A stretch of 64,000 nt of DNA, taken from the NCBI GenBank assembly GCA_026874595.1, contig CM049319.1:58288917-58352916 (forward strand), in the 5' to 3' direction. The position numbers were made by a program, and so were the translations under genes. The notes below the pieces were generated by a model. That model saw only the letters and a program-made list of their open reading frames with translations, made no database searches and was not told the origin of the DNA. Source of the stretch: Sipunculus nudus (taxonomy: Eukaryota > Annelida > Sipuncula > Golfingiida > Sipunculidae). Below, one piece after another: positions 15,541-52,125 of the stretch (positions within the stretch are counted from its first letter, which is position 1; each line of letters begins with the position of its first letter).

Positions 15541-17240
15541 ACTAGAATACGGGTAGTCGACAAGCGACTACTTGTATCCACCTAAATCAGAGTGGAACGG
15601 GTGAAGTGTTGCATATTAGCATGGATGTCTGCAGCCAAATTGTGTATGTAGATTGCGCTACCTACCAAAAAATCCAGAAAGCCATCCAAGTTGTATACAT
15701 ATGCAAAATTTAAGGCAGATAAGTCAAACCACTATATTGTATATGAGTGATTTTTGCCCTTGGCAGACAAACAGATGGACGCTGTGCAAATAGTTGCAGG
15801 TGGCGCCACCAGTTTAGCGTATGATAAAGAGCTTTATGAGAACTATAAACATGCAAAACTTTGGCCCAAACGGTCAAACGGTTGCCAAGATATGAGCTTG
15901 GATATCTGCTGCATAAACTAGAATGCAGGTGGCGCCACCTGTCATAAAATCAGAAAAGCTATCCAGGATGTATAAGCATGCCGAATTTCAGGTGAATTAG
16001 TCAAACCACTGCAGAGATATGAGTGATTTTAACCCAAGGCAGACGAACAGATGGACACTGTGCAAACATGGTTGCAGGTGGCACCACCATTTTTTGTGTA
16101 TGTTATAAAGCTCCCCAAGGGCTCCATTTGTGCAAAAAAATTTTCCTGATCGGTCAAACGGTTCCTGAGATATGAGCTTGGATGTCTGCAGCGTAAATGT
16201 GAATGTAGGTGGCGCCACCTGTCATTAAATCAGAAAAGCTATCCAGGATGTATAGGCATGCCAAATTTCAGGTGAATTAGTCAAGTCACTGCAGAGATAT
16301 GAGTGATTTTAACCCAAGGCAGACAAACAGATGGACACTGTGCAAACATGGTTGCAGGTAGTGCCACCATTTTTGGTGTATGTTATAAAGCTCTCCAAGG
16401 GCTACATTTGTGCAAAAGAATTTTCCTGATCGGTCAAACGGTTCCCGAGATATGAGCTTGGATGTCTGCAGCGTAAACGTGAATGTAGGTGGCGCCACCT
16501 GTCATAAAATCAGAAAAGCTATCCAGGATGTATACGCATGCCAAATTTCAGGTGAATTAGTCAAGTCACTGCAGAGATATGAGTGATTTTAACCCAAGGC
16601 AGACGAACAGATGGACACTGTGCAAACATGGTTGCAGGTGGCGCCACCATTTTTGGTGTATGTTATAAAGCTCTCCAAGGGCTACATTTGTGCAAAAGAA
16701 TTTTCCTGATCGGTCAAACGGTTCCCGAGATATGAGCTTGGATGTCTGCAGTGTAAACGTGAATGTAGGTGGCGCTACCTGTGATAAAATCAGAAAAGCT
16801 ATCCAGGATGTTTCACATGCCAAATTTCAGGTGAATTAGTCAAGTCACTGCAGAGATATGAGTGATTTTAACCCAAGGCAGACGAACAGATGGACACTGA
16901 GCAAACATGGTTGCAGGTGGCGCCACCATTTTTGGTGTATGTTATAAAGCTCTCCGAGGGCTACATTTGTGCAAAAAAATTTTCCTGATCGGTCAAACGG
17001 TTCCCAAGATATGTGGGTTTATGTGTGGAAACAGACGCACAAACGGACGCAGAGCGCAGAGGAAAGGTCAGAGGTCAAAACAAAATCGGGGCGCAGCAGT
17101 TCACATGTGACCCGAACATAATCCCGGGTTTCGGAAAAATCCACCCAGCGGTTACAGAGGAGTTCTCCGGACACCTACGCTGCGGCGGCGGCGTGCAGCT
17201 GAAAACATAGTATCCGCAAAACTCTGTTTTGGCGGATACA
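15541..17240 (+). mobile_element. Satellite-carrying Helentron-like element, family B copy B1
   Basis: It starts ACTAGAATACGGGTAGTCG, where GTAGTCG..CGACTAC can form a hairpin, followed by TGTATCC.CC. Then comes a tandem array of ~281-base units, with landmark GGTGGCGCCACCTGTCAT.AAATCAG near 15928, 16208, 16490 and 16770. It closes with a GGC-rich stretch, GAAAACATAGTATCCGC and a 3' hairpin ending GGCGGATACA at 17240. It is flanked by A on both sides with no longer duplication. This design fits non-autonomous Helentron (HINE/pearl-like) elements. Many short frames in the array on both strands are artefacts of the repeat. Confidence 0.7.
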
Positions 17241-17371
17241 ATTATTGAGAAACAGGTGCTTCTGTATGAATTTTTATTCAATACAAGCCAACTGTACTGC
17301 ACTTTTATAAATGATGGTAATATTTATTCAGAAATATTTGACCCAATCCTTTACAAGATTACATTTATATA

Positions 17372-19977
17372 ACTAGACATTTCTTGGCACCGCAGGTGCC
17401 AGAGTATCCCCAGACATAGTAGGCCCCCACCCCCTTTATAAATAGACCCCCATTTTTAGCAGCATATACTGACACTTGGCATATTCATTGTTTCTTCCAT
17501 CTAACAATCCACAATCTTGTTAAAGATGTTGGTCCTGTGACCTTGATCTTTTTAAAGATGTGTCCTGTGACCTTGACCTTTGACCTCATCACCCCAAAAT
17601 CAATTTGGGTCTTGCTTTTCCAATGGGACATATGCAAGTTAAGTTTGAAATCTATACATCAATAAAGCAGGAATTATCACCCAGAAACTAATTTTTGGAC
17701 AGATGGCTCCTGTGACCTTCACCTTTGACCTTGTGACCTCAAAATTGATAGTGTTCTTCCTCTCTTGGCAGGAGAACTATATGTGCAAGATGAAAGATCT
17801 GAGATGAAATGTTTGAATGAAAATGCATCCACATCTTTTTAAAGATGTGTCCTGTGACCTTGACCTTTGACCTCATCACCCCAAAATCAATTTGGGTCTT
17901 GCTTTTCCGATGGGACATATACAAGTCAAGTTTGAAATCCATACATCAATAAAAGCAGGAATTATCATCCAGAAACTAATTTTTGGACAGATGGCTCTTG
18001 TGACCTTCACCTTTGACCTTGTGACCTCACAATTGATAGGGGTCTTCCACTCTTGGCAGGTGAACTATATATGCAAGAGGAAAGATCTGAGATGAATTGT
18101 TTGGCTGAAAATGCATCCACAATCTTTTTAAAGAGGTTTCCTGTGACGTTGACCTTTGACCTCATAACCCCAAAATCTATTCAGGTCTTGCTTTTCCAAT
18201 GGGCCAAATTCAAGTCAAGTTTGAAATCCATACATCAATAAAAGAAGGAATTATCATCCAGGAACTAATTTTTGGACAGATGGCTCCTGTGACCTTCACC
18301 TTTGACCTTGTGACCTCAAAACTGATAGGGTTCTTCCTCTCTTGGCATGTGAACTATATGTGCAAGATGAAAGATCTGAGATGAAATGTTTGGATGAAAA
18401 TGCATCCACATCTTTTCAAAGGTGTGTCCTGTGACCTTGACCTTTGACCTCATAACCTCAAAATCAATTTGGGTCTTGCTTTTCCAATGGGACATATACA
18501 AGTCAAGTTTGAAATCCATACATCAATAAAAGCAGGAATTATCATCCAGAAACTAATTTTTGGACAGATGGCTCCTGTGACCTTCACCTTTGACCTTGTG
18601 ACCTCAAAATTGATAGGGGTCTTCTACTCTTGGCAGGTGAACTATATGTGCAAGATGAAAGATCTGAGATGAATTGTTTGGCTGAAAATGCATCCACAAT
18701 CTTTTTAAAAAGGTTTCCTGTGACCTTGACCTTTGACCTCATGACCCCAAAATCAATTTGGGTCTTGCTTTTCTAATGGGATATATACAAGTAAAGTTTG
18801 AAATCCATACATCAATAAAAGTAGGAATTATCATCCAGAAACTAATTTTTGGACAGATGGCTCCTGTGACCTTCACCTTTGACCTTGTGACCTCAAAATT
18901 GATAGGGTTCTTCCTCTCTTGGCAGGTGAACTTTATGTGCAAGATGAAAGATCTGAGATGAAATGTTTGGCTGAAAATGCATCCACATCTTTTTAAAGGT
19001 GTGTCCTGTGACCTTGACCTTTGACCTCATAACCCCAAAATCAATTTGGGTCTTGCTTTTCCAATGGGACATATACAAGTCAAGTTTGAAATCAATACAT
19101 CAATAAAGCAGGAATTATCATCCAGAAACTAATTTTTGGACAGATAGCTCCTGTGGCCTTGACCTTTGACCTTGTGACCCCAAAATTTATATGGATCATC
19201 CACTACTGGCAAGTGAGCTATATATTCAAGATGGAAGACCTAAGATGAAAGTTTGGCTTAAAATGCATCCACAGTATCTTTTAAAATGCCAGTCCAGTGA
19301 CCTTGACCTTTGAACTCATGACCCTAGAACCTATAGAGTTCTTACTTTAGTGGTGGGCCATACATAAGTCATGTTTGAAATCCATATGGCTATCAACACT
19401 GGAGATATCATAAGAGGTGTGTGATTTTCACCATATATGGCAATATTCAAGGTCAAGGCCACTATCATAGGAAAGGTCATGACCCCAATTTAAATAAACA
19501 TCATCCCATAACCCATACCTATGTATAAGCATAATATAAAAGAAATCTGTCCATTAGTTTTTGACTTATAATGCTCACAGTACTGTAAGGTGGCAATTTT
19601 GGGGGTATTAAACGGCACAAAAACAAGTAAAGAATAATAGGTGGCGCCACCAGTTTCTGGAACATGACAACCCTATCCATGATCTTCCATCAACTTGATT
19701 TTGGGATAAATCCATGCAAGATTTCTTGAGATATTAAAGAATTTGTGTGATTTTCCCCAAAATTGGACCTATTCAAGGTCAAGGACACTCTCCTAGTAAA
19801 GGTCATGACCTCATTTTAAATAGGCGTCGTCCTCACACCCATATCTATACATATACCAAGTTTGGTAAAGTTCCGTGAAATATTTTTTGGGTTATCGCGC
19901 CAACAAGATTTATATGCGGCGGCGGCGGCGGGACCGGTATGAAAACGTAGTATCCCCCGACTTTGTCTGGGGATACA
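17372..19977 (+). mobile_element. Satellite-carrying Helentron-like element, family A copy A1
   Basis: The 5' end is ACTAGACATTTCTTGGCACC, in which GGCACC-gca-GGTGCC forms a hairpin, followed by GTATCCCCAGAC. A tandem array of ~288-base units follows; each unit is two ~144-base halves built on TGACCTTGACCTTTGACCT and TGACCTTCACCTTTGACCT. After the array come a unique tail with GGTGGCGCCACC at 19640-19651, a (GGC)n stretch, CATAGTATCCCCCGAC and the 3' end GTCTGGGGATACA. The terminal GTATCCCCAGAC and GTCTGGGGATAC are inverted repeats. Length 2606 bp. Confidence 0.75.
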
Positions 19978-21040
19978 AATATACATCCAACTGCATTCAC
20001 TTTAACTTTTCTTGAGATAATATGATCAAAAGGAATTAAAAGATGGTTGCCTGGTGGCCATATTGGACTTCTGACAAGTCTGAAATCAGACAACAAACAT
20101 TCTCTAAATCGGACCAAACATTGAAGAAAAATTAATGAAACTGCACTGAAGAAAGAATTTCTAAGGTGGCTAACTGGCAGACATAATGGATTTCTGACAA
20201 GTATGACATTTGATATCCCACATTCTCCAATAAGAGACCAAACTTGGGGCAAATTATCCAGTAATTAATGCCCAAAATAATTCAAAAGGCATGTCCAGGC
20301 CCTCATATCAGATTTATAGATATGCAATTGTAAAAAGTGTAAGTCCAATATTTTTTATTATCACTCTGCTTTTCAATGGGGTCAGCAGGGTAGGGAAACT
20401 GCCAAACCTGAAAGAAAAGAAATGCAGAAAGCATGACTAAGAGTCTTGAAATAAAACAAAAAGCCATCCTAAATCAAGGTACCCATCCACATATTATGAA
20501 AACAAACACTTGCTTTTATATGTGGTGATATATATTAAAATATTCAGATATTTAGGAAACTAAGTTTATTGCTAGGATTCCATAAAATAAACTGCAAAAT
20601 GTTCCCATCATCTTATAAATCAGTAGCTAAACCTTAATACTATACTCTCATAGTCTTAATGCCTGGCTGAAGCATTCTGACAACAGTGTTTTTGTTATGA
20701 AGTAACGAGGTACCTATCACTGAGCCTTATCACTTAATAGGCTGATACAAAAGGGAGTCATATGTCACCAGTGTCACTCACAATTACAGCCACACAGGGA
20801 GATGTACCAGCTGGGGTGGGATGGTTATATATACAAGAAAAATAGAGATGGTCTATAAAATAAGTAATTGTGAACATCCCTGACCTATGACCTTGGCCTT
20901 TTGCCCATATATCAACTGGATTCTTTCTCAATGATGGGTAACTACTAACTACTTAAATCTGGTGTAATTACTTGGCAACCAATGGGTGAGTAACTTTGAC
21001 CTGCAACCTTTAACCCGCTGACCAGCTGACCCCAAAATCA
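19978..21040. other. No gene seen between A1 and A2
   Basis: A minus-strand frame at 19845-20252 straddles the A1 end and is not convincing as a gene. Around 20875-21040 there are weak TGACCT-type satellite units (gacctatgaccttggcc, tgacctgcaacctt) into which A2 has inserted; the remainder is AT-rich non-coding. Confidence 0.5.
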
Positions 21041-24000
21041 ACTAGACATTTCTTGGCACCGCAGGTGCCAGAGTATCCCCAGACATAGTAGGCCCCCACC
21101 CCCTTTATAAATAGACCCCCATTTTTAGCAGCATATACTGACACTTGGCATATTCATTGTTTCTTCCATCTAACAATCCACAATCTTGTTAAAGATGTTG
21201 GTCCTGTGACCTTGATCTTTTTAAAGATGTGTCCTGTGACCTTGACCTGTGACCTCATGACCCCAAAATCAAATCTGGTCTTGCTTTTCCAATGGGACAT
21301 ATGCAAGTTAAGTTTGAAATCTATACATCAATAAAGCAGGAATTATCACCCAGAAACTAATTTTTGGACAGATGGCTCCTGTGACCTTCACCTTTGACCT
21401 TGTGACCTCAAAATTGATAGTGTTCTTCCTCTCTTGGCAGGAGAACTATATGTGCAAGATGAAAGATCTGAGATGAAATGTTTGGATGAAAATGCATCCA
21501 CATCTTTTTAAAGATGTGTACTGTGACCTTGACCTTTGACCTCATCACCCCAAAATCAATTTGGGTCTTGCTTTTCCAATGGGACATATACAAGTCAAGT
21601 TTGAAATCCATACATCAATAAAAGCAGGAATTATCATCCAGAAACTAATTTTTGGACAGATGGCTCCTGTGACCTTCACCTTTGACCTTGTGACTTCACA
21701 ATTGATAGGAGTCTTCCACTCTTGGCAGGTGAACTATATATGCAAGAGGAAAGATCTGAGATGAATTGTTTGGCTGAAAATGCATCCACAATCTTTTTAA
21801 AGAGGTTTCCTGTGACCTTGACCTTTGACCTCATGACCCCAAAATCAATTCAGGTCTTGCTTTTCCAATGGGTCAAATTCAAGTCAAGTTTGAAATCCAT
21901 ACATCAATAAAAGAAGGAATTATCATCCAGAAACTAATTTTTGGACAGATGGTTCCTGTGACCTTCACCTTTGACCTTGTGACTTCACAATTGAAAGGGG
22001 TCTTCCACTCTTGGCAGGTGAACAATATATGCAAGATGAAAGATCTGAGATGAAATGTTTGGATGAAAATGCATCCACATCTTTTTAAAGGTGTGTCCTG
22101 TGACCTTGACCTTTGACCTCATAACCTCAAAATCAATTTGGGTCTTGCTTTTCCAATGGGATATATACAAGTCAAGTTTGAAATCTATACATCAGTAAAA
22201 GCAGGAATTATCATCCAGAAACTAAATTTTGGACTGATGGCTCCTGTGACCTTCACCTTTGACCTTGTGACCTCACAATTGATAGGGGTCTTCTACTCTT
22301 GGCAGGTGAACTATATGTGCAAGATGAAAGATCTGAGATGAATTGTTTGGCTGAAAATGCATCCACAATCTTTTTAAAAAGGTTTCCTGTGACCTTGACC
22401 TTTGACCTCATGACCCCAAAATCTATTCAGGTCTTGCTTTTCCAAAGGGTCAAATACAAGTCGAGTTTGAAATCCATTCATCAATAAAAGAAGGAATTAT
22501 CATCCAGAAACTAATTTTTGGACAGATTGCTCCTGTGACCTTCACCTTTGACATTGTGACCTCAAAATTGATAGGGTTCTTCCTCTCTTGGCAGGTGAAC
22601 TATATGTGCAAGATGAAAGACCTGAGATGAAATGTTTGGCTGAAAATGCATCCACATCTTTTTAAAGGTGTGTCCTGTGACCTTGACCTTTGACCTTATA
22701 ACCTCAAAATCAATTTGGGTCTTGCTTTTCCAATGGGACATATACAAGTCAAGTTTGAAATCCATACATCAATAAAAGCAGGAATTATCATCCAGAAACT
22801 AATTTTTGGACAGATGGCTCCTGTGACCTTCACCTTTGACCTTGTGACCTCAAAATTGATAGGGTTCTTCCTCTCTTGGCAGGTGAACTATATGTGCAAG
22901 ATGAAAGATCTGAGATGAAATGTTTGGCTGAAAATGCATCCACATCTTTTTAAAGGTGTGTCCTGTGACCTTGACCTTTGACCTCATAACCTCAATATGA
23001 ATTTGGGTCTTGCTTTTCCAATGGGACATATACAAGTCAAGTTTGAAATCCATACATCAATAAAAGCAGGAATTATCATCCAGAAACTAATTTTTGGACA
23101 GATGGCTCCTGTGACCTTCACCTTTGACCTTGTGACCTCAAAATTGATAGGGTTCTTCCTCTCTTGGCCGATGAACTATATGTGCAAGATGAAAGATCTG
23201 AGATGAAATATTTGGCTGAAAATGCATCCACATCTTTTTAAAGGTGTGTCCTGTGACCTTGACCTTTGACCTTATAACCTCAAAATCAATTTGGGTCTTG
23301 CTTTTCGAATGGGACATATACAAGTCAAGTTTGAAATCCATACATCAATAAAAGCAGGAATTATCATCCAGAAACTAATTTTTGGACAGATGGCTCCTGT
23401 GACCTTCACCTTTGACCTTGTGACCTCAAAACTGATAGGGGTCTTCCTCTATTGGCAGATGACTTACAAGTGGAAGATGAAAGGTCTGAGATGAAATGTT
23501 TGGCTTAAAATGCATCCACAATCTTTTTAAAGATGTGTCCTGTGACCTTGACCTTTGACCTCATGACCCCAAAATCAATTGGAGTCTTGCTTTTTCAATG
23601 GGACATATATAAGTCAAGTTTGAAATCAATACATCAATAAAAGCAGGAATTATCATCCAGAAACGAATTTTTGGACAGATAGCTCCTGTCGCCTTGACCT
23701 TTGACCTTGTGACCCCAAAATTTATATGGATCATCCACTACTGGCAAGTGAGCTATATATTCAAGATGGAAGACCTAAGATGAAAGTTTGGCTTAAAATG
23801 CATCCACAGTATCTTTTAAAATGCCAGTCCAGTGACCTTGACCTTTGACCTCATGACCCTAGAACCAATAGGGTTCTTACTTTAGTGGTGGGCCATACAT
23901 AAGTCATGTTTGAAATCCATATGGCTATCAACACTGGAGATATCATAAGAGGTGTGTGATTTTCACCATATATGGCAATATTCAAGGTCAAGGCCACTAT

Positions 24001-24512
24001 CATAGGAAAGGTCATGACCCCAATTTAAATAAACATCATCCCATAACCCATATCTATGTATATGCATAATATAAAAGAAATCTGTCCATTAGTTTTTGAC
24101 TTATAATGCTCACAGTACTGTAAGGTGGCAATTTTGGGGGTATTAAACGGCACAAAAACAAGTAAAGAATAATAGGTGGCGCCACCAGTTTCTGGAACAT
24201 GACAACCCTATCCATGATCTTCCATCAACTTGATTTTGGGATAAATCCATGCAAGATTTCTTGAGATATTAAAGAATTTGTGTGATTTTCCCCAAAATTG
24301 GACCTATTCAAGGTCAAGGACACTCTCCTAGTAAAGGTCATGACCTCATTTTAAATAGGCGTCGTCCTCTCACCCATATCTATACATATACCAAGTTTGG
24401 TAAAGTTCCGTGAAATATTTTTTGGGTTATCGCGCCAACAAGATTTATATGCGGCGGCGGCGGCGGGACCGGTATGAAAACATAGTATCCCCCGACTTTG
24501 TCTGGGGATACA
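21041..24512 (+). mobile_element. Satellite-carrying Helentron-like element, family A copy A2
   Basis: Almost identical to A1 over its first ~200 and last ~830 bases, with the same hairpins and the GGTGGCGCCACC at 24175-24186. It is 866 bases longer (3472 bp), close to three 288-base units, so the copies differ mainly in array length. Unit-to-unit similarity is very high, especially 22.6-23.5 kb. Both flanks show A at the insertion point, with no longer target duplication. Confidence 0.75.
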
Positions 24513-24519
24513 ATAAGTT

Positions 24520-30816: not shown

Positions 30817-33800
30817 CATGGTTGGGGCCAATTACATTGAAAAGTAATTATTACAATTACGATTACTTCTAAAAATCTCAATAACAATTACTAATTAAAT
30901 TTCAAAAAGTAATGATGGAATTACAATTACTTTTAAAAAGTAATTAATTACCTTCAATTACGTTATAAAAAATATATAATATACAGAGGCAGGAATCATG
31001 TTAAATATCAATCATGCAAGAAAGGCCAACTGAATGAATTTATAAAAGGAAAAACTACAAACAAACATATCCAGTTTGGAGTTATATATTAAAGTGCATG
31101 ATAGCAATATCAATGATAATATACCATGGCATAATGTTAAAATTTGCAAGCTGGCTGTCATATGTGAACTGAACTATATTGCTTATATTGTTTGTAGTAT
31201 CAGGCACTGAAACATTTGTTGAATTAGTGTTCTGAAAAGTATTATAGTATGTATCTGAAAGCACATGTGGGTAAACTATATTTTAAACATATTACATTCA
31301 GAGATATCATTTTTGTAAAAAAACATGACAATTTCATTTAACATTCTTTTACCACATATTATCCTTTAGCAGAGAAAAGGTCTTGCTTCTTGAAAACACT
31401 GGCATGAGCCAATTAGAGCACATGTGGATACAAATGTTGGTTCAAACCTTTGTAAATTGATGAAGGAATAACCTTTAGCAACTACCATAATCCAATACTG
31501 TAATCCTACACATTAATCAACACAACTCTTATTTTATTTCTGTCAATGCTGATTAGTGTTATGTCATCAATGCTGGAATTTTAAATGCAGTGTGATTTCA
31601 CTAACTCATTTCATTTGAATAATTCATATAAATTATTCATGCTGAAAATATAATATATATAATAAAATTTATGGAATGAAATTATTTGAAAGAAAATTTA
31701 ATAAAAACAATGGTTAGTTTCTTATGTATACATGAGGGGTAGTAAAAACAATATACACTAGTGGCCCAGAGTCTCCAGGCACAGGAAACAGTGGAATTTG
31801 TTCAGATACTACAGCAAGCCAACTGAGACAGCCCTGCTGTATTGATACCTATCTCTATTTACCTCATGGGCCATTGACTTGAGGTAATTCTGATATCAGC
31901 CTTCCAAGATCATTAGCCTCTTTGTTCCTGTGACTCACTCAGTGTCAGCTAATTAGCAGATAAACACTGATGTAACCAGATCAGTATGAGTATGTTCAAG
32001 CCCCCATTTCAGTGAAAGTGTGAAATGTAGCAAGCCCACACTTGTGGTAGTGTAGCTCTGGACATGTGTACATTATGGAAGCCTTTTACTTTAAAATATC
32101 CACATTGTAGTGAAGGCATTTGCAAAAAAACAAAAAAAAACAACAAAAAAAACAGTGTAACTTATAAGGCACACTAATTACCATGCATTTTACATACATA
32201 CATAGTTTTTATTCAATAATCATCGCTTACAATCCTTACCCAAAAGTATTTTGATTAACAGTGCAAAGGAATGAGGTATAAGGTGCTGTGCCCTGTCATG
32301 AATTTGGAAAGTAATTGGAAGGTAATTGAGAAGTAATTAAAATTACATCTATTTGTACCCTTGTAAATTTTACAATTACAATTACTTGTAATTGAATTTT
32401 GCTCAATTACAAATACTGTTCAATTACTTGAAAAATTATTATGAATTACAGGTAACTAGACATTTCTTGGCACCGCAGGTGCAAGGGTATCCCCAGAAAT
32501 AGTAGGCCCCTCCCCTTAAGAACAGACCCCCATTTTTAGCAGCATATACTGACACTTGGCATATTTATTGTTTCTTCCATCTAACAATCCACAATCTTGT
32601 TGAAGATGTTGGTTCTGTGACCTTGATCTTTTTAAAGATGTGTCCTGTGACCTTGACCTCTGACCTCATGACCCAAAAATCAATTTTGGTCTTGCTTTTC
32701 CAATGGGACATATGCAAGTCAAGTTTGAAATCTATACATCAATAAAGCAGGAATTATCATCCAGAAACTAATTTTTGGACAGATGGCTCCTGTGACCTTC
32801 ACCTTTGACCTTGTGTTCTTCCTCTCTTGGCAGGTGAACTATATGTGCAAGATGAAAGATCTGAGATGAAATGTTTGGCTGAAAAAACATCCACAATCTT
32901 TTCAAAGATGTGTCCTGTGACCTTGACCTTTGACCTCATGACCCCAAAATCAATTTTGGTCTTGCTTTTTCAATGGGACATATACAAGTCAAGTTTGAAA
33001 TCCATACATCAATGAAAGCAGGAATTATCATCCAGGAACTAATTTTTGGACAGATGGCTCCTGTGACCTTCATCTTTGACCTTGTGACCTCAAACTGATA
33101 GGGGTGTTCCTCTAATGGCAGATGACTTATATGTGCAAGATGAAAGTTCTGAGATGAATTGTTTGGCTAAAAATGCATCCACAATCTTTTCAAAGATGTG
33201 TCCGAAGACCTTGACCTTTGACCTCATGACCCCAAAATCAATTTTGGTCTTGCTTTTCCAATGGGACATATAAGTCAAGTTTGAAATCAATTCATCAATA
33301 AAAGAAGGAATTATCATCCAGAAACTAATTTTTGGACAGATAGCTCCTGTGGCCTTGACCTTGTGACCCCAAAATTTATATGGATCATCCACTATTGGCA
33401 AGTGAGCTATATATTCGAGATGGAAGACCTAGGATGAAAGTTTGGCTTAAAATACATCCACAGTATCTTTTAAAATGCGAGTCCAGTGACCTTGACCTTT
33501 GACCTCATGACCCTAGAACCTATAGGGTTCCTACTTTTGTGGTGGGCCATACATTAGTCATGTTTGAAATCCATATGGCTATCAACACTGATGATATCAT
33601 AAGAGGTGTGTGATTTTCATCATTTATGGCAATATTTAAGGTCAAGGCCAGTATCATAGGAAAGGTCATGAGCCCAATTTAAATAAACATCATCCCATAA
33701 CCCATACCTATGTAAATGCATAATATAAAAGAAATCTGTCCATTAGTTTTTGACTTATAATGCTCACAGTACTGTATGGTGGCAATTTTGGGGGTATTAA

Positions 33801-34203
33801 ATGGCACGAAAACAAGTAAAGAATAATAGGTGGCGCCACCAGTTTCTACAAAATGACAACCCTATCCATGATCTTCCATCAAGTTGATTTTGGGATAAAT
33901 CCATGGAAGATGTCTTGAGATATTAAAGAATTTGTGTGATTTTCCCCAAAATTGGACCTATTCAAGGTCAAGGACACTCTCCTAGTAAAGGTCATGACCT
34001 CATTTTCAATAGGCGTTGTCCTCTTACCCATATCTATACATATACCAAGTTTGGTAAAGTTCCGTGAAATATTTTTTGGGTTATCGCGGCAACAAGATTT
34101 ATATGCGGTGGCGGCGGCGGCGGGACCGATATGAAAACATAGTATCCCCCGACTTTGTCTGGGGATACAATTACAAATACACATTATAATTACCACAACC
34201 CTG
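30817..34203. mobile_element. hAT-like non-autonomous element with 8-bp target duplication
   Basis: Flanked by ATAGTCAG at 30809-30816 and 34204-34211. The left end CATGGTTGGGGCC and the reverse complement of the right end CAGGGTTGTGG form short inverted ends, and both subterminal regions are rich in GTAATTA/TAATTAC (30840-30970 and 32315-32454). Eight-base duplications with CAGGGTTG-like ends are characteristic of hAT transposons. No transposase frame is visible. Family A copy A3 (32455-34169) is nested in it; without A3 it would be about 1.67 kb. Confidence 0.75.
32455..34169 (+). mobile_element. Satellite-carrying Helentron-like element, family A copy A3
   Basis: Same ends as A1 and A2 (ACTAGACATTTCTTGGCACC ... 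GTCTGGGGATACA), with fewer ~288-base units, a (GGC)n stretch and GGTGGCGCCACC at 33829-33840. The host hAT sequence reads ..GGTA before and ATTACAAAT after, so removal restores GGTAATTACAAAT. Insertion was between two A residues with no duplication beyond that. Confidence 0.75.
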
Positions 34204-35347: not shown

Positions 35348-36527
35348 ACTAGAATACGGGTAGTCGACAAGCGACTACCTGTATCCGCCTAAATCAGAGT
35401 GGAGCGGGTGAAGTGAAGCATGGATTGAGTGGCAAGGGGAAATAGAGTGAAGTGTTGCATATCAGATGGATGTCTGCAGCAAAATTGTGTATGTAGGTTG
35501 CCCCCCTACCACAAAATCCAGAAAGCCGTCCAAGTTGTATACATATGCAAAATTTAAGGCAGATAAGTCAAACCCTATGTATATGAGTGATTTCAGCCCG
35601 TGGCAGACAAACAGATGGACACTGAGCAAAAATGGTTGCAGGTGGCGCCACCAGTTTTGCGTATGATAAAGAGCTATGTGAGAACTATACACATGCAAAA
35701 CTTTTGCCCAATCGGTCAAACGGTTCCCAAGATATGGGCTTGGATGTCTGCTGCATAAACTAGAATGCAGGTGGCGCCACCTGTCATAAAATCAAGAGAG
35801 CTGTCGGGGATGTATAAACCTGCAAAATTTTAGGCAGATATGTCAAACCACTGCCCAGATATGAGTGATTTTATCCCATGGCAGACAAACAGACGGGAGC
35901 TGTGCAAAAATGGCTGCAGGTGGCGCCACCAGTTTTGCATATGATAAAGAGCTATGTGAGATCTATACACATGCAAAATTTTGGCCCAATCAGTCAAACG
36001 GTTCCCGAGATATGAGCTTGGATGTCTGCAGCGTAACATGAATGTAGGTGGCGCCACCTGTCATAAAATCAGAAAAGCTTCTCCAGGATGTATACGCATG
36101 CCAAATTTCAGGTGAATTAGTCAAGTCACTGCAGAGATATGAGTGATTTTAACCCAAGGCAGACAAACAGATGGACACTGTGCAAACATGGTTGCAGGTG
36201 GCGCCATCTTTTCTTGTGTATGTTATAAAGCTCTCCAAGGGCTGCATTTGTGCAAAAAAAATTTCCTGATCGGTCAAACGGTTCCCGAGATATGTGGGTT
36301 TATGTGTGGAAACAGACGCACAAACGGATGCAGAGCGCAGAGGAAAGGTCAGAGGTCAAAACAAAATCGGGGCGCAGCAGTTCACATGTGACCCGAACAT
36401 AATCCCGGGTTTCATAAAATTCCGCCCAGCAGTTACGGAGGAGTTCTCCGGACACCTACGAGGCGGCGGTGGCGGCGGCGGTGGGCTGAAAACATAGTAT
36501 CCGCAAAACTCTGTTTTGGCGGATACA
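35348..36527 (+). mobile_element. Satellite-carrying Helentron-like element, family B copy B2
   Basis: Starts ACTAGAATACGGGTAGTCG (hairpin GTAGTCG..CGACTAC) then TGTATCCGCC. The ~281-base units carry GGTGGCGCCACC near 35640, 35770, 35919 and 36046. It ends in a (GGC)n stretch, GAAAACATAGTATCCGC and GGCGGATACA at 36527. The TGTATCCGCC near the start and GGCGGATACA at the end are inverted repeats. Length 1180 bp, the shortest family B member here. Confidence 0.7.
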
Positions 36528-39173: not shown

Positions 39174-39301
39174 GTTTGTATATCCAGGAAGGGTTTCGAT
39201 TGCTTTATATATGCTCCATGATATACTCTTTTATTTTGCATTAGCGCTCAGCTTATAAAGGATAATGATACTAGAGTTTATGGTAGAGATATACCACAGT
39301 T

Positions 39302-40908: not shown

Positions 40909-40916
40909 CCACAGTT

Positions 40917-42034: not shown

Positions 42035-42038
42035 TTAA

Positions 42039-42528: not shown

Positions 42529-42532
42529 TTAA

Positions 42533-43588: not shown

Positions 43589-43688
43589 ATCTTTGTTTAC
43601 ATGCTGAGCCAATCAGATATTGTTTAAGAGCTCCAAATGGGTGCACCCATCTTTGTTTACACGCTGAGCCAATCAGATATTGTTTCTC
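43589..43688. repeat. Two-copy tandem block with CCAAT motif
   Basis: TAATCTTTGTTTACATGCTGAGCCAATCAGATATTGTTT (from about 43588) is repeated 62 bases later with two or three changes (43650-43688). Each copy holds GAGCCAATCAG, which fits an NF-Y-type CCAAT element, but no gene start is evident beside it. Confidence 0.65.
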
Positions 43689-44655
43689 AGCGTTGGTTGG
43701 CTGCATTGCCAAACATGAAAAATCCTTCCATTTCTCACAGCATGTCAGTGGAAGGTCTCTGCAAAGTCATGTCTACCTTTAACTTATGTCTACTCAAAAG
43801 GCACCACCATTCCTCCTTAGGCATATTGAGAAATGATGAACATTGAGGAATGATTAACACAGCTGTATAATCTACTGTTTTTATACCTCCCCAGGAAAGT
43901 ATTTTGTTTTTACTTCCTTGGTTGGCTGGTTTGTCTGTTGCAACATTACACTAAACGATGAGTGATTTTGTTGAAATTTTGTTAAGGGTAAGGAACCACC
44001 CAAGGAACAATAAATTTTGGAGTTAATGTGGATCAACCTAATGTATATATAATTCATAGGTTTTCATACCATTGTAACAGATGGTGATTCCATCGTTCCT
44101 CGGTTGAGGCCGCCCATTCATTCACAGGGGTTGTAATACTTTGAAATTTTCACCTTTCCGATGGAATGGCATTAATACAGGTATGCCTTTCCACAGGAAA
44201 AATTTGCCTTTCCACTTTAGATGCATCCTATCATCATATCGAACTATCAAGTTACATTTCGCTCAGTGTTAACCTGATTCTGCCATGTTTTGTGTCTTCA
44301 TAAATGAACACTTGCATGCAGTAAGAACTGAATGTTTTCAATTGTAGCTCTGTTCAATCAGAAACAAGCATTGTGCATGATAAAGTATTTAGTTTTTGTG
44401 TCACGTTTGCTACTATTATCAACTAGGTCAAGGTGTCCATCTTTGGTTACAGTATGAAAAATGCCTTTACATACACATGTTTGCCTGACTGAGACAGATT
44501 GAAAGGCGTTATTACGCCCCTGATTCATACATACATATAAGGGGCAGCATTTGTTCTGTTAAATACAAAGTCTGATAAGAAGATTCTAGTGGGGATCTGC
44601 TCTAAAAGTAGACAACTGTTCAATCTAGGTATTATCACTGGTTATTATAATTATT
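43689..44655. other. VCPIP1 intron 1, no gene
   Basis: The block around 44050-44150 (caccatctgttac-type sequence and 'cgttcctcggttgaggccgc') looks repeat-derived, but no second copy was identified in this window. Otherwise nothing recognised. Confidence 0.4.
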
Positions 44656-44960
44656 GTGTCTCCCCACCCGGGGGTGGTGGGGGGGGGGGAGACATAGTAT
44701 TTGGTCTGTTGTTGGTGTCCATGGTCATCTATGTGTCTGTGGAATTTCTTGTGAACACAAAAAATTTTGAACCACCTGATAAATTGTTCTTTTAATTTGA
44801 ATTATTTACTAGTATTTCTGACTAGTTAAAAGAATTGTGGCCTTGACCTTCACCTTCAGGGTCAGTTGAACCAAAAAGTAACAATTTTGTGAAACCCATG
44901 AAGTATCGCATATTTTTTCCTCAAATGTGAAACACATGGTGACCCTGGTGACGTTGAACT
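44656..44960. repeat. Degenerate repeat opening with a hairpin and G11 tract
   Basis: TGTCTCCCCACCCGGGGGTGG..GGGGAGACA (44656-44693) is an imperfect hairpin that includes G 44679-44689. It is followed by 'gtctgtggaatttcttgtgaacac' and 'ggccttgaccttcaccttcagggtcag' units, like those at 29435-29900. Confidence 0.55.
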
Positions 44961-45107
44961 TCTAAAGTGTTAATCTGTGCTTCAGAAGAAGGAAGTTTAT
45001 TTTAAATGGGGCATGCCCAGTCTTCGGACACCATTGCATCTCCAGTGCCAGAAATTTATAGTTATAATCATTAGTAGTAGTAGTTGTAGTATTCTTAATA
45101 CTTACAG

Positions 45108-45968
45108 ATATAGACATGGCATCGAAGGGGATCAGTCCGTACAAGATGCTGAGTGGCCACTGTCCTGATGCGGCATGCAACACTAAACTCTTTTTCCCAG
45201 GGCATGATACCAGCATCGAGTGTACCAATTGCGGACAGCGCCACCATGTGAGAGACCTGAAAAACACCCAGGAGGTAGTCAACACTGATGTTGCAGTACA
45301 CAACTTCTTCAAAAACATTCTTCTTGAGCATGCTAAGCTGAAGAAAAGTACTGACAGCGTTAAAGTTCTCGGACTCTCAAATTACCAGTGTAAACTGCTG
45401 TCGCCACTTTTAACATATTACGGAATGGATAAATCCACAGGTAAGGCAAAGTTATTGAGTGAGATGGGGCAAGGGGACAAGTTTGACTGCAGCATCATTG
45501 GAGAGCGGACATTCCTGATCGAGCCGGAGCATATTGAGACGATGGGGTATGGTAGAGATCGCACTGGAAGTATGAATTATTTAGGTCGAATGTTAGAGGA
45601 ATTGCGGAAATTTAATAATGATGAGGAACGATTACTTCCTATCCATGCAGATGGAGACGGCCATTGCCTGGTCCATGCTTTGTCTCGAGCTCTAGTTGGC
45701 CGTGAATTGTTTTGGCACCCATTGAGAGATAATCTACATATGCATATAAGGGACACTCTTGAAAAATACAAAAAAGTTTTCGGGCAGTTCACGGATGAAA
45801 ATGAGTGGCAAGAAATAATAAACGAGAGCGATCCAGACTTTATCCCAGCAGAGGGAGAACAGCACGGACTGCGTAACTTGCACATCTTTGGCCTCGCCAA
45901 TGTCATTCGTAGGCCGATCGTTCTGTTGGACTCCATGGAGGGTATCCAGAGTTCAGGAGATTACACAG
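45108..45968 (+). CDS. VCPIP1: VCPIP1 coding exon 2 (zinc-ribbon-like region and OTU catalytic Cys)
   Basis: The acceptor is CTTACAG (AG 45106-45107) and the donor GTAATT (45969). The exon encodes the p97/p47-interacting OTU deubiquitinase known for cutting ubiquitin chains and for p97-driven Golgi reassembly. A C-x4-C ... C-x2-C set (CPDAAC, CTNCGQRH) near the start resembles a zinc ribbon. Next come NYQCKLLSPLL, AFLIEPEH-like FLIEPEHIETMGYG, and the OTU box DGDGHCLVHALSRALVGREL. The catalytic Cys is codon 45665-45667, residue 220 of the joined model; in human the catalytic residue is Cys219. It ends in ..IHIFGLAN-type LHIFGLANVIRRPIVLLDS and GDYT. Residue agreement with vertebrate VCPIP1 is high throughout. 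Confidence 0.95.
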
Positions 45969-46388
45969 GTAATTCTATCTTCATACCATCAAGCTTCTGG
46001 CAAGTACACTTTCAGAGACCTTGATTCAGTGGAGCTTCACTTGTTCTGTTTGGCTGCAGGAGCATGTCTATTTTTAGAATGAAACATTTGGCATTTCTTG
46101 GAGAGCACCTAGATACTGACCAGTCAAATAAAGATATTTAAACAAAAAGTAAATTGAGCTTAAGCAGTAACAATGTTGATTAAAGTAACTAGTAGACAAT
46201 ATCATCTGCGAGATCTGCCATGGTCCTAATGTGAAAAGATGCAAGATGTATTAAATTATTAATTTAAATTTGGATGATATAGTTAATAATTGCATTTAAT
46301 CCATTTTGATTGGTGCTACATTTATAATTTAAGTTGCAGTTGACCATTTTGTTGATCAATTTTGTATTCAGTTTACTTTATTTTTCAG

Positions 46389-46648
46389 GTATTTTTCTGC
46401 CAGCATTTGTGGATCCAGACTTCTGTCGAGGCAAGGATGGAAAACTAAACAAGCCGTTGTGTTTGTCATGGAGTTCCTCTGGCCGTAACCACTACATTGC
46501 CCTCGTGCCAGTTAAAGGGCGCCCCCTACCCAGGCTTCCTCCATGGATGACTCCGAAGTGCTGGGGCATGCCAGACAGTCTGATGTCACACTACATTGAA
46601 CTTGACGAGAAGGGTTGTCTCACGCTAGGAGGAGAAAAAACTCTTCAG
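46389..46648 (+). CDS. VCPIP1: VCPIP1 coding exon 3 (OTU catalytic His)
   Basis: The acceptor is TTTTTCAG (46387-46388) and the donor GTATGT (46649). It continues phase 1 (G|GT) with GIFLPAFVDP and carries LNKPLCLSWSSSGRNHYIAL. The His in GRNHY (46490-46492, residue 355 of the model) aligns with the catalytic His of the OTU fold in the family. The exon ends in phase 0 at ..LGGEKTLQ, aligning with the GGDRSLQ segment of vertebrate VCPIP1. Translation beyond 46648 is intronic. Confidence 0.95.
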
Positions 46649-46805
46649 GTATGTCGTTTTATCATTGAATGTTGGGCAATATCAGTTTTCTAGTTGTTTT
46701 TTGCTTCAGAGATGAAGATTTATGGTTTAAATCTTATTCAAGTCAACTGTAAACTTGATCTAGTCACTGTCTTGTCATAACAGCACCTACAGTATATATG
46801 ACTTC

Positions 46806-47900
46806 TTAATTTTTTTTAGCGAACCTGTGAGCTTATGCGATGGTGGGGCGTCGTCCGATATATGTCATGTGTCGTACGCGTGCGTTGTCTGTACGTTAAC
46901 CATAGCCATCTCAAAAACGGCAGGAGCTAGCATCACCAAAGTTTTTGCAAATAATCAGTCATCCAAAAAACTATATCGGATTTTGTTTATTTTTTTTTCC
47001 TACTGCATTTTCTTAGATTTTATAGGGGAAAAAGCTAAAAAATCTTCTTCTCCAAAACTGTCCAGCCAAATTGTCCTATATTTCACAGAAATGATCCCTG
47101 GAACAATCTCTCTCAACTTTTTTCGAATGGTTCCAGATCGGAGATTTTTGGCCGAGTTACAGGAGGTTGAACTTTGTCATCTGTCTAAAAAAACATAATA
47201 AAGTTTAAATCTCAGAAACGGCTGGAGCTATCATCACCAAATTTTATGCCAATGTTGGTCACATAGGTCATATCTGAAATTGAGGTATTGGTGGCGCCAC
47301 CTGGATCGGCTTTTTTTGTACGGGGTCATTAGTGCCTGTATCACACTGAGGGCTACAAAATCTTTTTCTCTGAAACCATAAGGCCAAAATGTTTAATATC
47401 ACACAGAAATGATCCTAGGGTAGTGATTTCTGAAGTTTGTTCAAATGGTCTCTGTTCAGTGACTTTTGGCTGAGTTATGGGAAGCTGAATTTAGTCATAA
47501 GCCATCACAGCCCATTTTAGTTTAGTGGCTACAAAGATCTTCTTCTCAAAAACCACTGGGCCAATTTCTTAAATCTCACACATTAATTATCCTCAGATGT
47601 TGATAATTCAAGTTTGTTCAAGTGGTTTTGGTTCAGTGCTTTTTGGCTGAGTTACGGGAAGCTGAACTTAGCCAGTTTGCTGTATCTTCCTATTTGAGTT
47701 ATAAACCTACGAAACGTTTTTCGACCATTGCCACTGAAGCAAGTTTGTTAAATATTTTACAAGAATAATCCCTACAATAATTCTTATAATAATTGTCATT
47801 AATGGTTCCACATGAATGATTTTTGGCTGAATTTTGGAGATTGAATTGAGTCATTTTACTATATCTTAGCTGTGTGATGCTGTTACTTCTAGCTTGGCAC
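46806..47900. repeat. Degenerate tandem repeat in VCPIP1 intron 3
   Basis: The landmark TTGGCTGAGTTA.GGGAAGCTGAA recurs near 47150, 47465, 47646 and (weakly) 47822, each preceded by a 'ttctcaaaaac..' and a 'ctcacacaga.atgatcc' block. GGTGGCGCCACC lies at 47290-47301. The block 47255-47330 matches the reverse complement of 5795-5870, so the family is dispersed. The 123-codon frame 46827-47198 is repeat sequence, not an exon. Confidence 0.65.
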
Positions 47901-48424
47901 CAGTTTATCAGCATCTATTACATCATGCCACTAGACATTTAGATTTCAGGTTATCTTTGGTTAATATTGACAAGAAAATTTTTTTTAAACTTTTAAAAAA
48001 ATCAGATTTATGATCTAAGTTATTCATCATACCAGGCAATGGGATATTCATGGATATTCAGCTCTCTGTGGCTATATAAATACAACTGTACATGGATTAT
48101 AAATTATTGGTATCCCTTCTTCACTTAATTCAAGAATTTGCCATCAATGAGATATATGTGTATTTTAATTTTGCATTCAGTATGCATCTGTAATAATTTT
48201 AAATGTATTCCTGATTTCTTTTTTTAAAAAGTCAGCTGTAAAACATTTTGTATTGGGAAAATTAATTTCAAAGTTATTTCAAGTAGGGACCACTTTTGTG
48301 TACAGCTGGCAACACTTTGTTTACCATTGGCAGATTTGCCAGTGCCTTGATGTTGGCCATTAGCCAAGATAATGTCAGCTCTATCAATAGTTTTGGCACA
48401 GTGCCTGGATTGGAAGAAGTGCAT
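47901..48424. other. VCPIP1 intron 3, nothing recognised
   Basis: AT-rich intron sequence without visible repeat or frame. Confidence 0.45.
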
Positions 48425-48690
48425 CCAGGTATAGGTCAAGAGTTCACTCAGTGCAGTAGCTGCATCCTATTTATAGCTTTGGCAGACTGCTCACTGCATC
48501 AGATTTGGCACCTAAGTTCAGCCTGGATCTATTTATAGCTTTGGCAGACTGCCAACTGTGTCAGATTATGCAACAGGTCAAGAGTTTTCTCAGTGCAGCC
48601 AATTACAGGTCAAAAGGTCACTCAGTCTAGCCAGGTGTTGGTCAAGAGTTCACTCAGTGCAGTAGCTTGGGGCAGCAATTTGTCACAGTT
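48425..48690. repeat. Irregular short tandem repeats
   Basis: AGGTCAAGAGTTCACTCAGTGCAGTAGCT recurs in full or part near 48434, 48576 and 48640. CTATTTATAGCTTTGGCAGACTG occurs twice (about 48468 and 48528). Intronic and non-coding. Confidence 0.65.
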
Positions 48691-48759
48691 CACTCATGGG
48701 CAATTGCCTTGCTCACCTAATCCTTGTCAGCCCAGTGCATCAAACTCTGGGGAAGTTTG

Positions 48760-49085
48760 ATGTATTGGTCTGATATTTTGACCTGTCTATGCATCTTTGA
48801 TGGTATTCTCATTTACAAGACAAGTGGTGCCACCTACATTGACCTTTGCAGTGTATACACCTGCTTATTTCTATAGCAATTTGATACATCAGCGTAAAAT
48901 TGGGCATGTTAATACATATCTGGTAGCTTTATAGTGTACAAGACTGGTGGCACCACCTACAATAATTTTGCACAGTGAATGGCCCTGCTTATTTCACAGG
49001 AGGGGTTTGACATATCAGTCTGACATTGGGCATATGTATATATCTCTTCGTTGTATACAAGACTGGTGGTGCCAGCTACAAGCAT
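48760..49085 (-). repeat. Partial family B-like satellite units
   Basis: Units with CAAGACTGGTGGCACCACCTACA and 'tttgacatatcagtctgacattgggcat' lie directly before B3 but outside its terminus, so they are a separate truncated relative or an older array into which B3 moved. Confidence 0.5.
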
Positions 49086-52000
49086 TGTATCTGCCAAAAC
49101 AGACTTTTGTGGATACTATGTTTTCAGTCAGACGCCGCTGCCGCTGTGACCGCCACTGCCACATAGGTTTCCCGAGAACTCCTCCGTAACTACTAGGCAG
49201 AATTTCTTTTAAACTCGGAATTATGATCGGGTCACATGTGAACTGCTGCACCCTCATTTTTGGTTGACCTCTGACCTCTCCTCTTTGTCCAGTGTCCATT
49301 TGTGCGTTTGTTTCCAAACATAAACCCACATATCTCGGGAACCATTGGATTGATTGGGCAAAAAATTTGCATGTTTATAGATCTCACATAGCTCATTATC
49401 ATACGCAAAACTGGTGGCACCACCTGCAACCATTTTTGTACAGCTTCCGTCTGTTTGTTTGCCATGGGATAAAATCACTTATATCTCGGCAGTGGTTTCA
49501 CATATCTGCCTAAAATTTTGTAGGTTTATACATCTTGGATAGCTTTCTGGATTTTGTGGCAGGTGGCGCCAGCTACATTTATGTATAGACGCAGACATTC
49601 AGGCTTATATCTCAGGACTGGTTTGACATATCCCCCTGAAATTTTGCATGTGTAAAGATCTCACATAGCATTTCATCATACTTAAAACTGATGGCGCCAC
49701 CTGCAACTATTTTTGCACAGCGTCTATTTGTTCATCTGCCTTGGGATAAAATTACTCATGTCTCGGCAGTGGTTTGACTTATCCACCTGAAATTTTGCAG
49801 GTTTATACATCCTTGACAGCTTTCTTGATTTTATGACAGGTTGCACCACCTACATTCACATTTACGCTGCAGACATCCAAGCTCATACCTCAGGAACCAT
49901 TGGATTGATTGGGCAAAAAATTTGCATGTTTATAGATCTCACATAGCTCATTTTCATACGCAAAACTGGTGGCACCACCTGCAACCATTTTTGTACAGCT
50001 TCCGTCTGTTTGTTTGCCATGGGATAAAATCACTTATATCTCGGCAGTGGTTTCACATATCTGCCTAAAATTTTGCAGGTTTATACATCTTGGATAGCTT
50101 TCTGGATTTTGTGGCAGGTGGCGCCAGCTACATTTATGTATAGACGCAGACATTCAGGCTTATATCTCAGGACTGGTTTGACATATCCCCCTGAAATTTT
50201 GCATGTGTAAAGATCTCACATAGCATTTCATCATACTTAAAACTGATGGCGCCACCTGCAACTATTTTTGCACAGCGTCTATTTGTTCATCTGCCTTGGG
50301 ATAAAATTACTCATGTCTCGGCAGTGGTTTGACTTATCCACCTGAAATTTTGCAGGTTTATACATCCTTGACAGCTTTCTTGATTTTATGACAGGTTGCA
50401 CCACCTACATTCACATTTACGCTGCAGACATCCAAGCTCATACCTCAGGAACCATTTGATCGATTGGGCAAAAATTTTGCGTGTTTATAGATCTGACATA
50501 GCTCTTTTTCATATGCAAAACTGGTGGCGCCACCTGCAACCATTTTTTCACAGCGTCCCTCTGTTTGTTTGCCATGGGATAAACTCAATTATATCTCGGC
50601 AGTGGTTTGACATATCTGCCTAAATTTTGCAGGTTTATACATATTGGATAGCTTTCTTGATTTTATGACAGGTAGCGCCACCTACATTCACATTTATGCT
50701 GCAGATATCCAAGCTCATATCTTGGAACCATTTGACTGATTGGGCAAAAATTTTGCATGTTTATAGATCTCACATAGCTCTTTATCATACGCAAAACTGG
50801 TGGCACCACCTGCAACCATTTTTGCACAGCATCTGTCTGTTTGTTTAACGTGGGATAAAATCACTTATATCTCAGCAGAGGTTTGACATATCTGCCAAAA
50901 ATTTGCAGGTTTATACATCTTGGATAGCTTTCTGGATTTTGTGGCAGGGTGCGCTAGCTACATTTATGTATAGGCTGCAGACATTCAGGCTTATATCTCA
51001 GGACTGGTTTGACATATCCACCTGAAATTTTGCATGTGTATAGATCTCACATAGCTCTTAATCATACACAAAATTTGTGGCGACACCTGCCACCATTTTT
51101 GCACAGCGTCCTTCTGTTTGTCTGCTGTGGGATAAAATCACTCGTATACAAGTAGTGGTTTGAATTATCTGCCTAAAATTTTGCATATGTATACAACTTG
51201 GACAGCTTTCTGGATTTTGTGGTAGATGGCGCAACCTACATACACATTTCAGCTGCAGACATCCATTGCGACCCAACTCAACAGGTCAAAAACTGTTTAG
51301 TTGAGTTGAGTTGCAAAGTGTATGCGCGAAAACGACCGGACTCAACCAGTCGGCGTCAGTTTTTGGTTTCTGGCAGAGTCAGAAAAAATCATGTCCAGTT
51401 GAGTCGCGTCATTCAGAAACACAGTCAGCAACCAATCACAGCTATGTCTCTGCTGAAATGAGTACATCTTTCATGTGATTTTCTGGGCCGAAATCGTATG
51501 GTGCAGAGAAAGACAACATTACACGACATGAGCACTATGCGCACATTATATATGAATAAATCTGAATAGGCAATGTCACCAGTACAATAGCAGACTAATA
51601 TCAATATGCTTCATGTTCACGGATGTAGAATATGTAGTGTAAATCAGGACATCGAATACTATTTTAAAGACTTAAATTATAACTAAAATCATTTATCTAT
51701 GCGATGGGAAGAATTGAAAGGGAGAGATATAGATACATACATGTATACTGATAAATAAATGACATGTAATGATGTATAAATGACTTTGCTTTCATAAGTC
51801 ACAAGCTTGTCTCCATTTTTGTTGATTTGAATGTACCGCCTTTGCCGTCAATCCAGTTGAGTTGAGACGAGTTGTTATGTGTATGCACCCCAGTTTTCAT
51901 CTGTCTGCAGGGTCAAAAACTGGAAGAAACTGTAGAAAACTTGTGGAAACGTGTTCAGTTGGGCCCAGTTGAGTTGAGTCGGGTCGTGTCCCAATGTGTA

Positions 52001-52125
52001 TGCTGAGCTTCATGCAACACACCTCACTCATTTCCCCTTGCCACTCAATCCATGCATCACTTCACCCGTCCCACTCTGATTTTGGCGGATACATGTAGTC
52101 GCTTGTTGACTACTCGTATTCTAGT
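49086..52125 (-). mobile_element. Satellite-carrying Helentron-like element, family B copy B3 (inverted) in VCPIP1 intron 3
   Basis: It reads in reverse: TGTATCTGCCAAAACAG..GGATACTATGTTTTCAG and a GCCGCTGCCGCTGTGACCGCC block at 49086-49165. The ~280-base units follow, then GGCGGATACATGTAGTCGCT, the hairpin and CTAGT at 52125. The array shows a higher-order period of about 555-560 bases: 49337-49895 and 49896-50450 are nearly identical. A ~745-base insertion (about 51267-52012) interrupts the last unit. It is flanked by T on both sides, matching the A/A flank of the plus-oriented copies. Confidence 0.7.
51267..52012. mobile_element. Insertion within B3 with inverted ends (CGACC..ACTCAAC)
   Basis: Sister copies B1 and B2 run directly from the GACATCCAT-type sequence to ATGCAACAC; B3 has about 745 extra bases there. 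The left end has GCGACCCAACTCAACAGG, and the right end, in reverse complement, has CATTGGGACACGACCCGACTCAACTC. AGTTGAGTTGAG recurs at both sides, with GTGTATGC motifs near 51318, 51877 and 51999. No transposase is visible. A clear target duplication could not be set, so the class is open. Confidence 0.55.

Follow-up and report, generated by a model that had tools for sequence, protein, structure and literature searches.

Satellite-like arrays carried between the conserved ends of non-autonomous Helentrons (HINEs) have been described in the oyster Crassostrea gigas, where the Cg_HINE set comprises 11 elements with 13 array types, none of which could be related to an autonomous element (PMC7492417); satellite-bearing HINEs are also covered in PMC11136912. 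For the DINE-1/HINE elements, autonomous partners encoding Rep, helicase and endonuclease are described that share their ends and high identity with them (PMC4067079). We analysed a 64,000-nucleotide window of the Sipunculus nudus genome (the whole stretch G000:C14:58288917-58352916; searched genome 1.43 Gb, 153 contigs) that carries six array-bearing elements, A1-A3 and B1-B3, and conclude that they very probably represent two non-autonomous Helentron (HINE) families, A and B, of the endonuclease-type rolling-circle transposons. By the kind of its repeats the genome is bivalve-like, and its large contigs, numbered up to C17 among the hits, may correspond to 17 chromosomes. The initial annotation of the window knew of no description of such paired families; given the oyster set this holds at most for the sequences themselves. 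Satellite-bearing HINEs with family-specific arrays are already known in oysters, and A and B are new members of this class. Among the literature listed in our searches, no title or abstract opening names these families, their sequences not having been compared with a repeat database.

All six elements were found with the same parts in the same order, at the places and on the strands previously assigned to them, A1, A2 and B1-B3 being drawn there on the + strand and A3 on the other (Table 1 gives the strands in the corrected polarity). The likeness to Helentrons and to pearl/HINE elements proposed earlier is borne out by the subterminal inverted repeats (subTIRs), the inverted repeat (IR) beside the 5' subTIR, the 3' palindrome and the insertion at TT, all of which are present. 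What had to be reversed is the polarity: because the layout matches that published for HINE/DINE-1 (PMC4067079) and Cg_HINE (PMC7492417), what had been taken for an ACTAGA start is in fact the 3' end, CTAGT, together with the palindrome upstream of it, and the supposed 3' hairpin is the 5' subTIR with its IR. Read on the strand opposite to the earlier drawing, each element passes from a host T through the TGTATCC subTIR, the IR GGATAC, TATGTTTTC and a GCC-rich stretch into the array, and thence through a second subTIR, GGATAC(A), a palindrome and 12-13 nt to the CTAGT end and a host T. On the true strand, all six window elements read T^TGTATC...CTAGT^T, with ^ marking the element boundary. The functional polarity, namely which end is nicked first, would by analogy follow the published convention. 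Two departures from the common layout were seen: B1 reads GAAAACGTAGTATCC (one mismatch), and A3 ends GCAGATACA and is longer by ~0.75 kb, an extra stretch that separates the array from the ACTAGA end and has short inverted repeats close to its edges.

Table 1. Coordinates of the elements assigned to HINE families A and B, and of their parts, in the window (TRF, Tandem Repeats Finder)
Feature	Window positions	Strand	Details
Element A1, family A	15541-17240	(-)	1,700 bp; true 5' end = 17240
A1 5' terminus, subTIR TGTATCCGCC + inverted repeat GGATAC	17210-17240	(-)	terminal hairpin
A1 GCC/GGC-rich stretch	17180-17200	(-)	occupies place of HINE microsatellite; direct reading
A1 array	15613-17013	(-)	five 280-bp units; TRF
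A1 3' palindrome GTAGTCG-N5-CGACTAC	15553-15571	(-)	12 nt before element end CTAGT
A1 3' subTIR GGATACA	15573-15579	(-)	
Element B1, family B	17372-19977	(-)	2,606 bp
B1 289-bp array	17546-19324	(-)	
B1 3' palindrome TGGCACC-N3-GGTGCCA	17385-17401	(-)	
B1 3' subTIR TGTCTGGGGATAC	17404-17416	(-)	
B1 328-bp array relic	19418-19822	(-)	one full unit + 79 bp of second, beside 289-bp array; converted from element positions 156-560
Element B2, family B	21041-24512	(-)	3,472 bp
B2 288-bp array	21215-23921	(-)	
Element B3, family B	32455-34169	(-)	1,715 bp; 288-bp array
Element A2, family A	35348-36527	(-)	1,180 bp
A2 278-bp array	35467-36206	(-)	
Element A3, family A	49086-52125	(+)	3,040 bp
A3 277-bp array	49329-51265	(+)	
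A3 extra ~0.75 kb with inverted repeats	about 51269-51987	(+)	

The IR GGATAC lies at most ~20 nt after TGTATCC and gives a stable 5' hairpin, whose folding is far beyond that of shuffled sequences (z -7.25 in A, -5.20 in B), and the 3' palindrome, located 12-13 nt before the terminus in the consensus of both families, departs moderately from its shuffles (z -2.69 and -3.21, respectively). Canonical Helitrons have 5' TC and 3' CTRRT termini and insert between A and T; this assignment was considered and rejected, as CTAGT at the 3' end fits CTRRT, whereas the elements begin with TG at the 5' end and insert at T^T.

The ends are by no means confined to the window copies, a possibility that the initial annotation had held against its own reading. 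The end motif GAAAACATAGTATCC occurs 7,098 times in the genome versus 14 times for the reversed pattern, and is followed by a closing GGATAC within 8-30 bases at 5,899 places, as opposed to 0 in the control. Of these 5,899 places 100 were listed, and by eye their hairpins are of two types, A and B, that vary by point changes or small indels. The first 35 of the listed places, all on C1 (0.14-4.51 Mb), served as our sample, which, coming from one chromosome end, is not random. Together with the six window elements, 26 of these places yielded 32 two-ended elements (18 A and 14 B); the other nine either lacked an ACTAGA end within the 3.5 kb fetched (six) or lie in a tandem cluster with the end cut or the palindrome missing (three), and a second, more diverged B pair under the score cut (L024, 84-1970) and a partnerless further A end (L015) were also left out. 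The sampled elements are 899-3,472 bp long, their longest Met-started open reading frame (ORF) has 103 aa, and tandem repeat units lie between the end modules in 32/32 by unit matches and in 31/32 by TRF.

Their insertion sites define a target longer than TT. AATNA follows 5,182 of the 5,899 genomic ends, where ~179 would be expected from the base composition of the window, giving TNAT^T on the element strand. Among the sampled elements, 31 of 32 have an A immediately before the ACTAGA end, and the right flank after GGATACA reads A (41/41), T (39/41), any base, A (40/41), with two partial rows of L016 excluded and with the copies of the cluster sharing flanks and hence not independent; T flanks both sides of all six window elements. 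Some elements lie inside minisatellites of 32, 47, 55 and 63 bp, the adjacent uninterrupted units of which could be used as empty sites. In none of the seven comparisons that passed the cut were bases gained or lost at the junction, with a 1-bp ambiguity at A^A; the junction was identical in five, and there was one substitution at it in L018 and three nearby in L027.

These junctions are also pertinent to the alternative that A and B are ordinary cut-and-paste miniature inverted-repeat transposable elements (MITEs), with the inverted end motifs as terminal inverted repeats and with short target duplications, an outcome against which the initial annotation had likewise set its reading. Short inverted motifs do occur at both ends, bivalve relatives have been filed as MITEs (PMC5139131), the class to which pearl-like elements were at first assigned, and 3 of the 32 elements show direct end repeats of 4, 4 and 6 bp. 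However, only one of the two motif copies is terminal, the other lying ~30 nt inside its end, and the minisatellite comparisons reveal no duplication beyond the A^A ambiguity. Moreover, direct repeats at the ends measure at most 1 bp in 28 elements (2, 4, 4 and 6 bp in the others), and those of at least 3 bp, seen in 3 elements, are no commoner than in re-paired flanks (mean 2.5, up to 6), which places the duplications at chance. We accordingly regard the MITE interpretation as very improbable. A preference for minisatellites was considered and dropped: four arrays contain insertions, but minisatellites already make up ~7% of the sampled flanks (2,312 of 34,190 flank bases, counted outside the window, the cluster and L033), which leaves no enrichment of insertions demonstrated.

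The array units are ~280 bp in A and ~288 bp in B (277-280 and 288-289 bp, respectively, by TRF in the window). In the B unit an internal dimer is plain (half-half score 48 versus a shuffle maximum of 21.5), in the A unit it is marginal (26.5 versus 24.5), and a third unit of 328 bp, found inside B-ended elements, is not dimeric (14.5 versus 23.5). The earlier statement that the arrays of A and B differ completely stands for the 280-bp and 288-bp units (score 23.5, shuffle maximum 42) but fails for the 328-bp unit, to which the A unit is distantly related (alignment score 55.5 versus a maximum of 31 in 60 shuffles, with one representative unit each); GGTGGCGCCACC or a near copy is present in both. 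End type and array are tightly matched in the sample: all 18 A-ended elements match only the 280-bp unit, whereas 12 of the 14 B-ended elements have the 288-bp unit and two, L024 and L029, match only the 328-bp unit, with about three 328-bp units instead of the 288-bp array.

All 12 B elements with the 288-bp array additionally retain, beside it and just inside the 5' module, a relic of the 328-bp array, which consists of one unit and a partial second (~1.2 units; the first 28 bp are unmatched in L017 and L018). The partial second unit stops at position 78-79 in 11 of the 12 (at 95 by alignment in L007). Measured against the unit consensus of L024, the likeness of the first 328-bp unit is 84-87%, whichever kind of B element it comes from, and that of the partial second unit 92-99% (at least 96% in 9/12). 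This relic with its shared breakpoint, together with the two B-ended elements that have only 328-bp units, suggests that the array was probably replaced inside one carrier: judged from these sequences, the B ancestor probably carried a 328-bp array, all but ~1.24 units of which gave way once, before the family spread, to the 288-bp array. That B contains the relic array is well supported; the direction of change, for which two 328-bp elements speak, is less so. Conversely, L024 and L029 could be late derivatives that expanded the ~1.2 units of B rather than a record of the older array. That complete 328-bp B-ended elements number only two is in keeping with such an origin, as are their 5' modules, which are 0.938 alike to each other and 0.932 to those of B, the latter being 0.966 alike among themselves; with values this close, age alone fails to separate the 328-bp elements from B. 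Yet an expansion of B's own units would have copied the first unit beyond position 79, and the partial second unit is 92-99% like the L024 consensus whereas the first is only ~85% like it in both kinds. This counts against a late derivation, which we consider unlikely, and favors the replacement of the older array within B.

By their subTIRs, A (consensus TGTATCCGCC) and B (consensus GTATCCCCAGACA) classify as separate families with like termini and target. The modular carrier envisaged in the initial annotation therefore survives in one part, the replacement of the 328-bp by the 288-bp array inside the B carrier, and not in the other, as A and B with their differing subTIRs are not one carrier. 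A pick-up of satellites from elsewhere, also envisaged there, goes beyond what the replacement in B supports. The notion of one carrier family freely exchanging whole arrays does draw on the like terminal bases TGTATCC...CTAGT, the common GGATACTATGTTTTC block, GCC-rich stretch and target, on the probable change of array in B, and on the occurrence of A and B at the identical register of the minisatellite unit in two arrays (L033 and L016-L018). We nevertheless hold it to be improbable, as the subTIRs and palindromes differ, 0 of 32 elements combine the ends of one family with the array of the other, and the end modules match over only 55 bp, at 82% (one A versus one B). The same minisatellite register is attributable to a common target preference of the two families; replacement of one family by the other at a single site, which was also considered, is not needed. 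In one of these places (L016-L018, G000:C1:1398560-1422200) about eight A and B elements alternate with 55-bp minisatellite units in a tandem cluster. Four tandemly copied B units in it have lost the 3' palindrome, and their sharing of this loss indicates that they were probably multiplied by tandem duplication rather than by transposition.

As for the enzymes that could move such elements, a search for Rep (PF14214) gave at least 143 listed matches, from 150 scored of 195 candidates, and at 26 Rep loci part of the sequence was read, covering 10 kb at six of them and 3 kb downstream at the other 20, with further stretches at four. Open ORFs of the Helentron type, joining Rep, PIF1 and endonuclease, are present in the genome: that of L001 combines OTU, Helitron_like_N, PIF1 and Exo_endo_phos (2,097 aa in the portion covered), and that of L003 Helitron_like_N, PIF1 and Exo_endo_phos_2 (2,137 aa). 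The Rep motif of both includes RGSPH, a Helentron signature (PMC4067079). The OTU domain of L001 is protease-like, and long tandem repeats lie near the start of these ORFs, with a 69-bp period in L001 (with L060) and 63-bp shifts in L003. The L003- and L005-type Rep elements were rejected as partners of A and B, the 10 kb read of each containing no A or B ends; L005 runs into a separate repeat containing GTGACCCATGGGTCCCTTGTTT.

In contrast to A and B, a third family, C, has a likely coding partner. A 1.2-kb marker stretch between endonuclease and second array has 16 genome matches, 10 of them of at least 900 bp. Nine of these ten lie ~5-6 kb downstream of a same-strand Rep match, and the tenth, on C1, lies 57 kb from the nearest listed Rep match. 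The copies on C7 and C2 are ~92% alike outside their arrays, with a similarity that spans three tandem arrays (about 320, 330 and 148/297 bp) and breaks off at a hairpin, GCTTGCCG...CGGCAAGC, after which comes AATAA; of the 3.5 kb read upstream, 2.7 kb still match at 92.6%, with the far element end beyond that stretch. In the C7 copy the reading covers the endonuclease stretch (L041), with a Rep match ~3 kb upstream; all three domains that an autonomous Helentron joins in one ORF (Rep, helicase and apurinic-type endonuclease) are present in the sister ORF L001 and in L003. The C hairpin has 3,035 genome sites, with AATNA next at 864, and C-type ends lie ~6-9 kb past the coding region. Checked against 100 listed hairpin places, the marker match at C1:66920764 has a C end 6.4 kb downstream on the same strand, and that at C2:69142176 has no exact C end within 10 kb. 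The 931-bp C7 tail gave 2,955 first-look candidates; 40 of these were scored, and all 39 other than the C7 copy are 95-98% identical to it.

The shared end, the 95-98% identical tail and the arrays downstream of Rep/endonuclease coding sequence suggest that C likely consists of an autonomous Helentron with arrays together with many copies that are non-autonomous. L014 calls for caution, since in it a non-autonomous C element also adjoins A: the C end beside the Helentron might likewise belong to a separate C element inserted next to it, a reading to which some small probability must be left, although against it speaks the shared stretch, which in both copies stops precisely at the hairpin. Two further features of C were noticed. 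On G000:C153 (~3-54 kb), 12 scored copies of the tail lie on one strand at 4.39-4.75-kb spacing, whole elements having seemingly turned satellite; and C ends (L062, L014 and sites such as C1:327821-327974) often repeat the terminal hairpin, with at least two copies spaced 60-85 bp from one another, which looks like an extension of the end.

Three observations weigh against this overall picture. First, the A subTIR, a 10-bp consensus pair that is exact over 7 bp in A1 and A3, falls below the 11-bp family rule, the subTIRs of published HINE sets measuring 11-15 bp; by exact length, those of A2 (10 bp), B3 (11 bp) and B1 and B2 (13 bp) cover the rest of the window. Second, the autonomous Helentron with ACTAGA and GGATACA ends that the initial annotation had proposed to seek did not appear, no coding element with A or B ends being found in the 10-kb or 3-kb stretches read at the 26 Rep loci or in the further stretches at four of them. 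Likewise, in a comparison of rare A/B end variants with a non-standard next base (69/69, 52 of 100 listed with 150 counted, and 36 of 100 listed with 339 counted, chosen by eye near Rep matches) with 129 typed Rep places, the nearest pair was 60 kb apart; three ends with AT-rich continuations look, on reading, like ordinary HINEs. Third, in the likely autonomous C copies the coding strand runs towards the subTIR-hairpin end, opposite to what is common and to the polarity assigned by convention to A and B; a published case of a minus-strand ORF is Helentron-Da-40 (PMC4067079).

Taken together, we propose that the Rep-helicase-endonuclease of an autonomous Helentron would act on the termini and that the element would be copied by rolling-circle replication into TNATT targets. 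The internal arrays would travel with it, growing, shrinking and turning over through recombination or replication slippage. Given their alike terminal bases and target context, A and B might be served by one enzyme or by two close relatives. More tentatively, and with somewhat less than even confidence, we posit that Helentrons act here as satellite workshops: autonomous copies with multiple arrays would shed non-autonomous families with one array, the arrays would be periodically replaced under fixed ends and TNAT^T targeting, new dispersed satellites would be continually seeded, and whole elements could become satellites. This bears on the question of why bivalve satellites lie in scattered short arrays and which enzyme spreads them. 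The end and tail that C has in common with a Rep/endonuclease-linked element, along with the fixed-breakpoint relic of B, render the co-evolution of carrier and satellite testable by sequence alone.

Related repeats were also seen outside the six elements. A second tandem array, of 286-bp GACCTTGAAGATCCAGGTCAAGGTCACC units, occupies window positions 1076-1747, and loose GGTGGCGCCACC or GGTGGCACCACC stretches resembling the A unit lie at 47333-49070, so that related units may also occur alone. A module with the palindrome GACCCATGGGTC recurs at window positions 13911-13955, 15219-15259, 58933-59009 and 59759-59794, in L004 (7185-7225) and in L005 (6424-6500), where it sits just past the Helentron endonuclease region and is perhaps the end of another family.

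Finally, the elements find parallels, of differing closeness, in three known systems. Pearl CvA/CvE/CvG and DTC84 of bivalves resemble them, by description, in conserved end modules around a central satellite-like array (PMC5139131, PMC11136912). The DINE-1/HINE elements and Helentrons of Drosophila, mite and mosquito share with them the subTIRs, the IR near the 5' subTIR, the 3' stem-loop and the TT target, along with tandem repeats in some copies (PMC4067079); here, however, satellite-like arrays are the main content, the partner of A and B was not found, and the likely partner of C has three arrays. Cg_HINE agrees in its 5' subTIR, IR, microsatellite-like stretch, central array, 3' subTIR and palindrome, in T-rich/TT insertion without duplication, and in comprising several families each with its own array, but differs in its monomers, which are 140-180 bp long as opposed to units of 280, 288 (clearly a dimer) and 328 bp here (PMC7492417). 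Compared by description, what A, B and C add to the oyster HINEs is the longer TNAT^T target context on 5,899 ends, the array-replacement relic in B and the likely autonomous partner of C.

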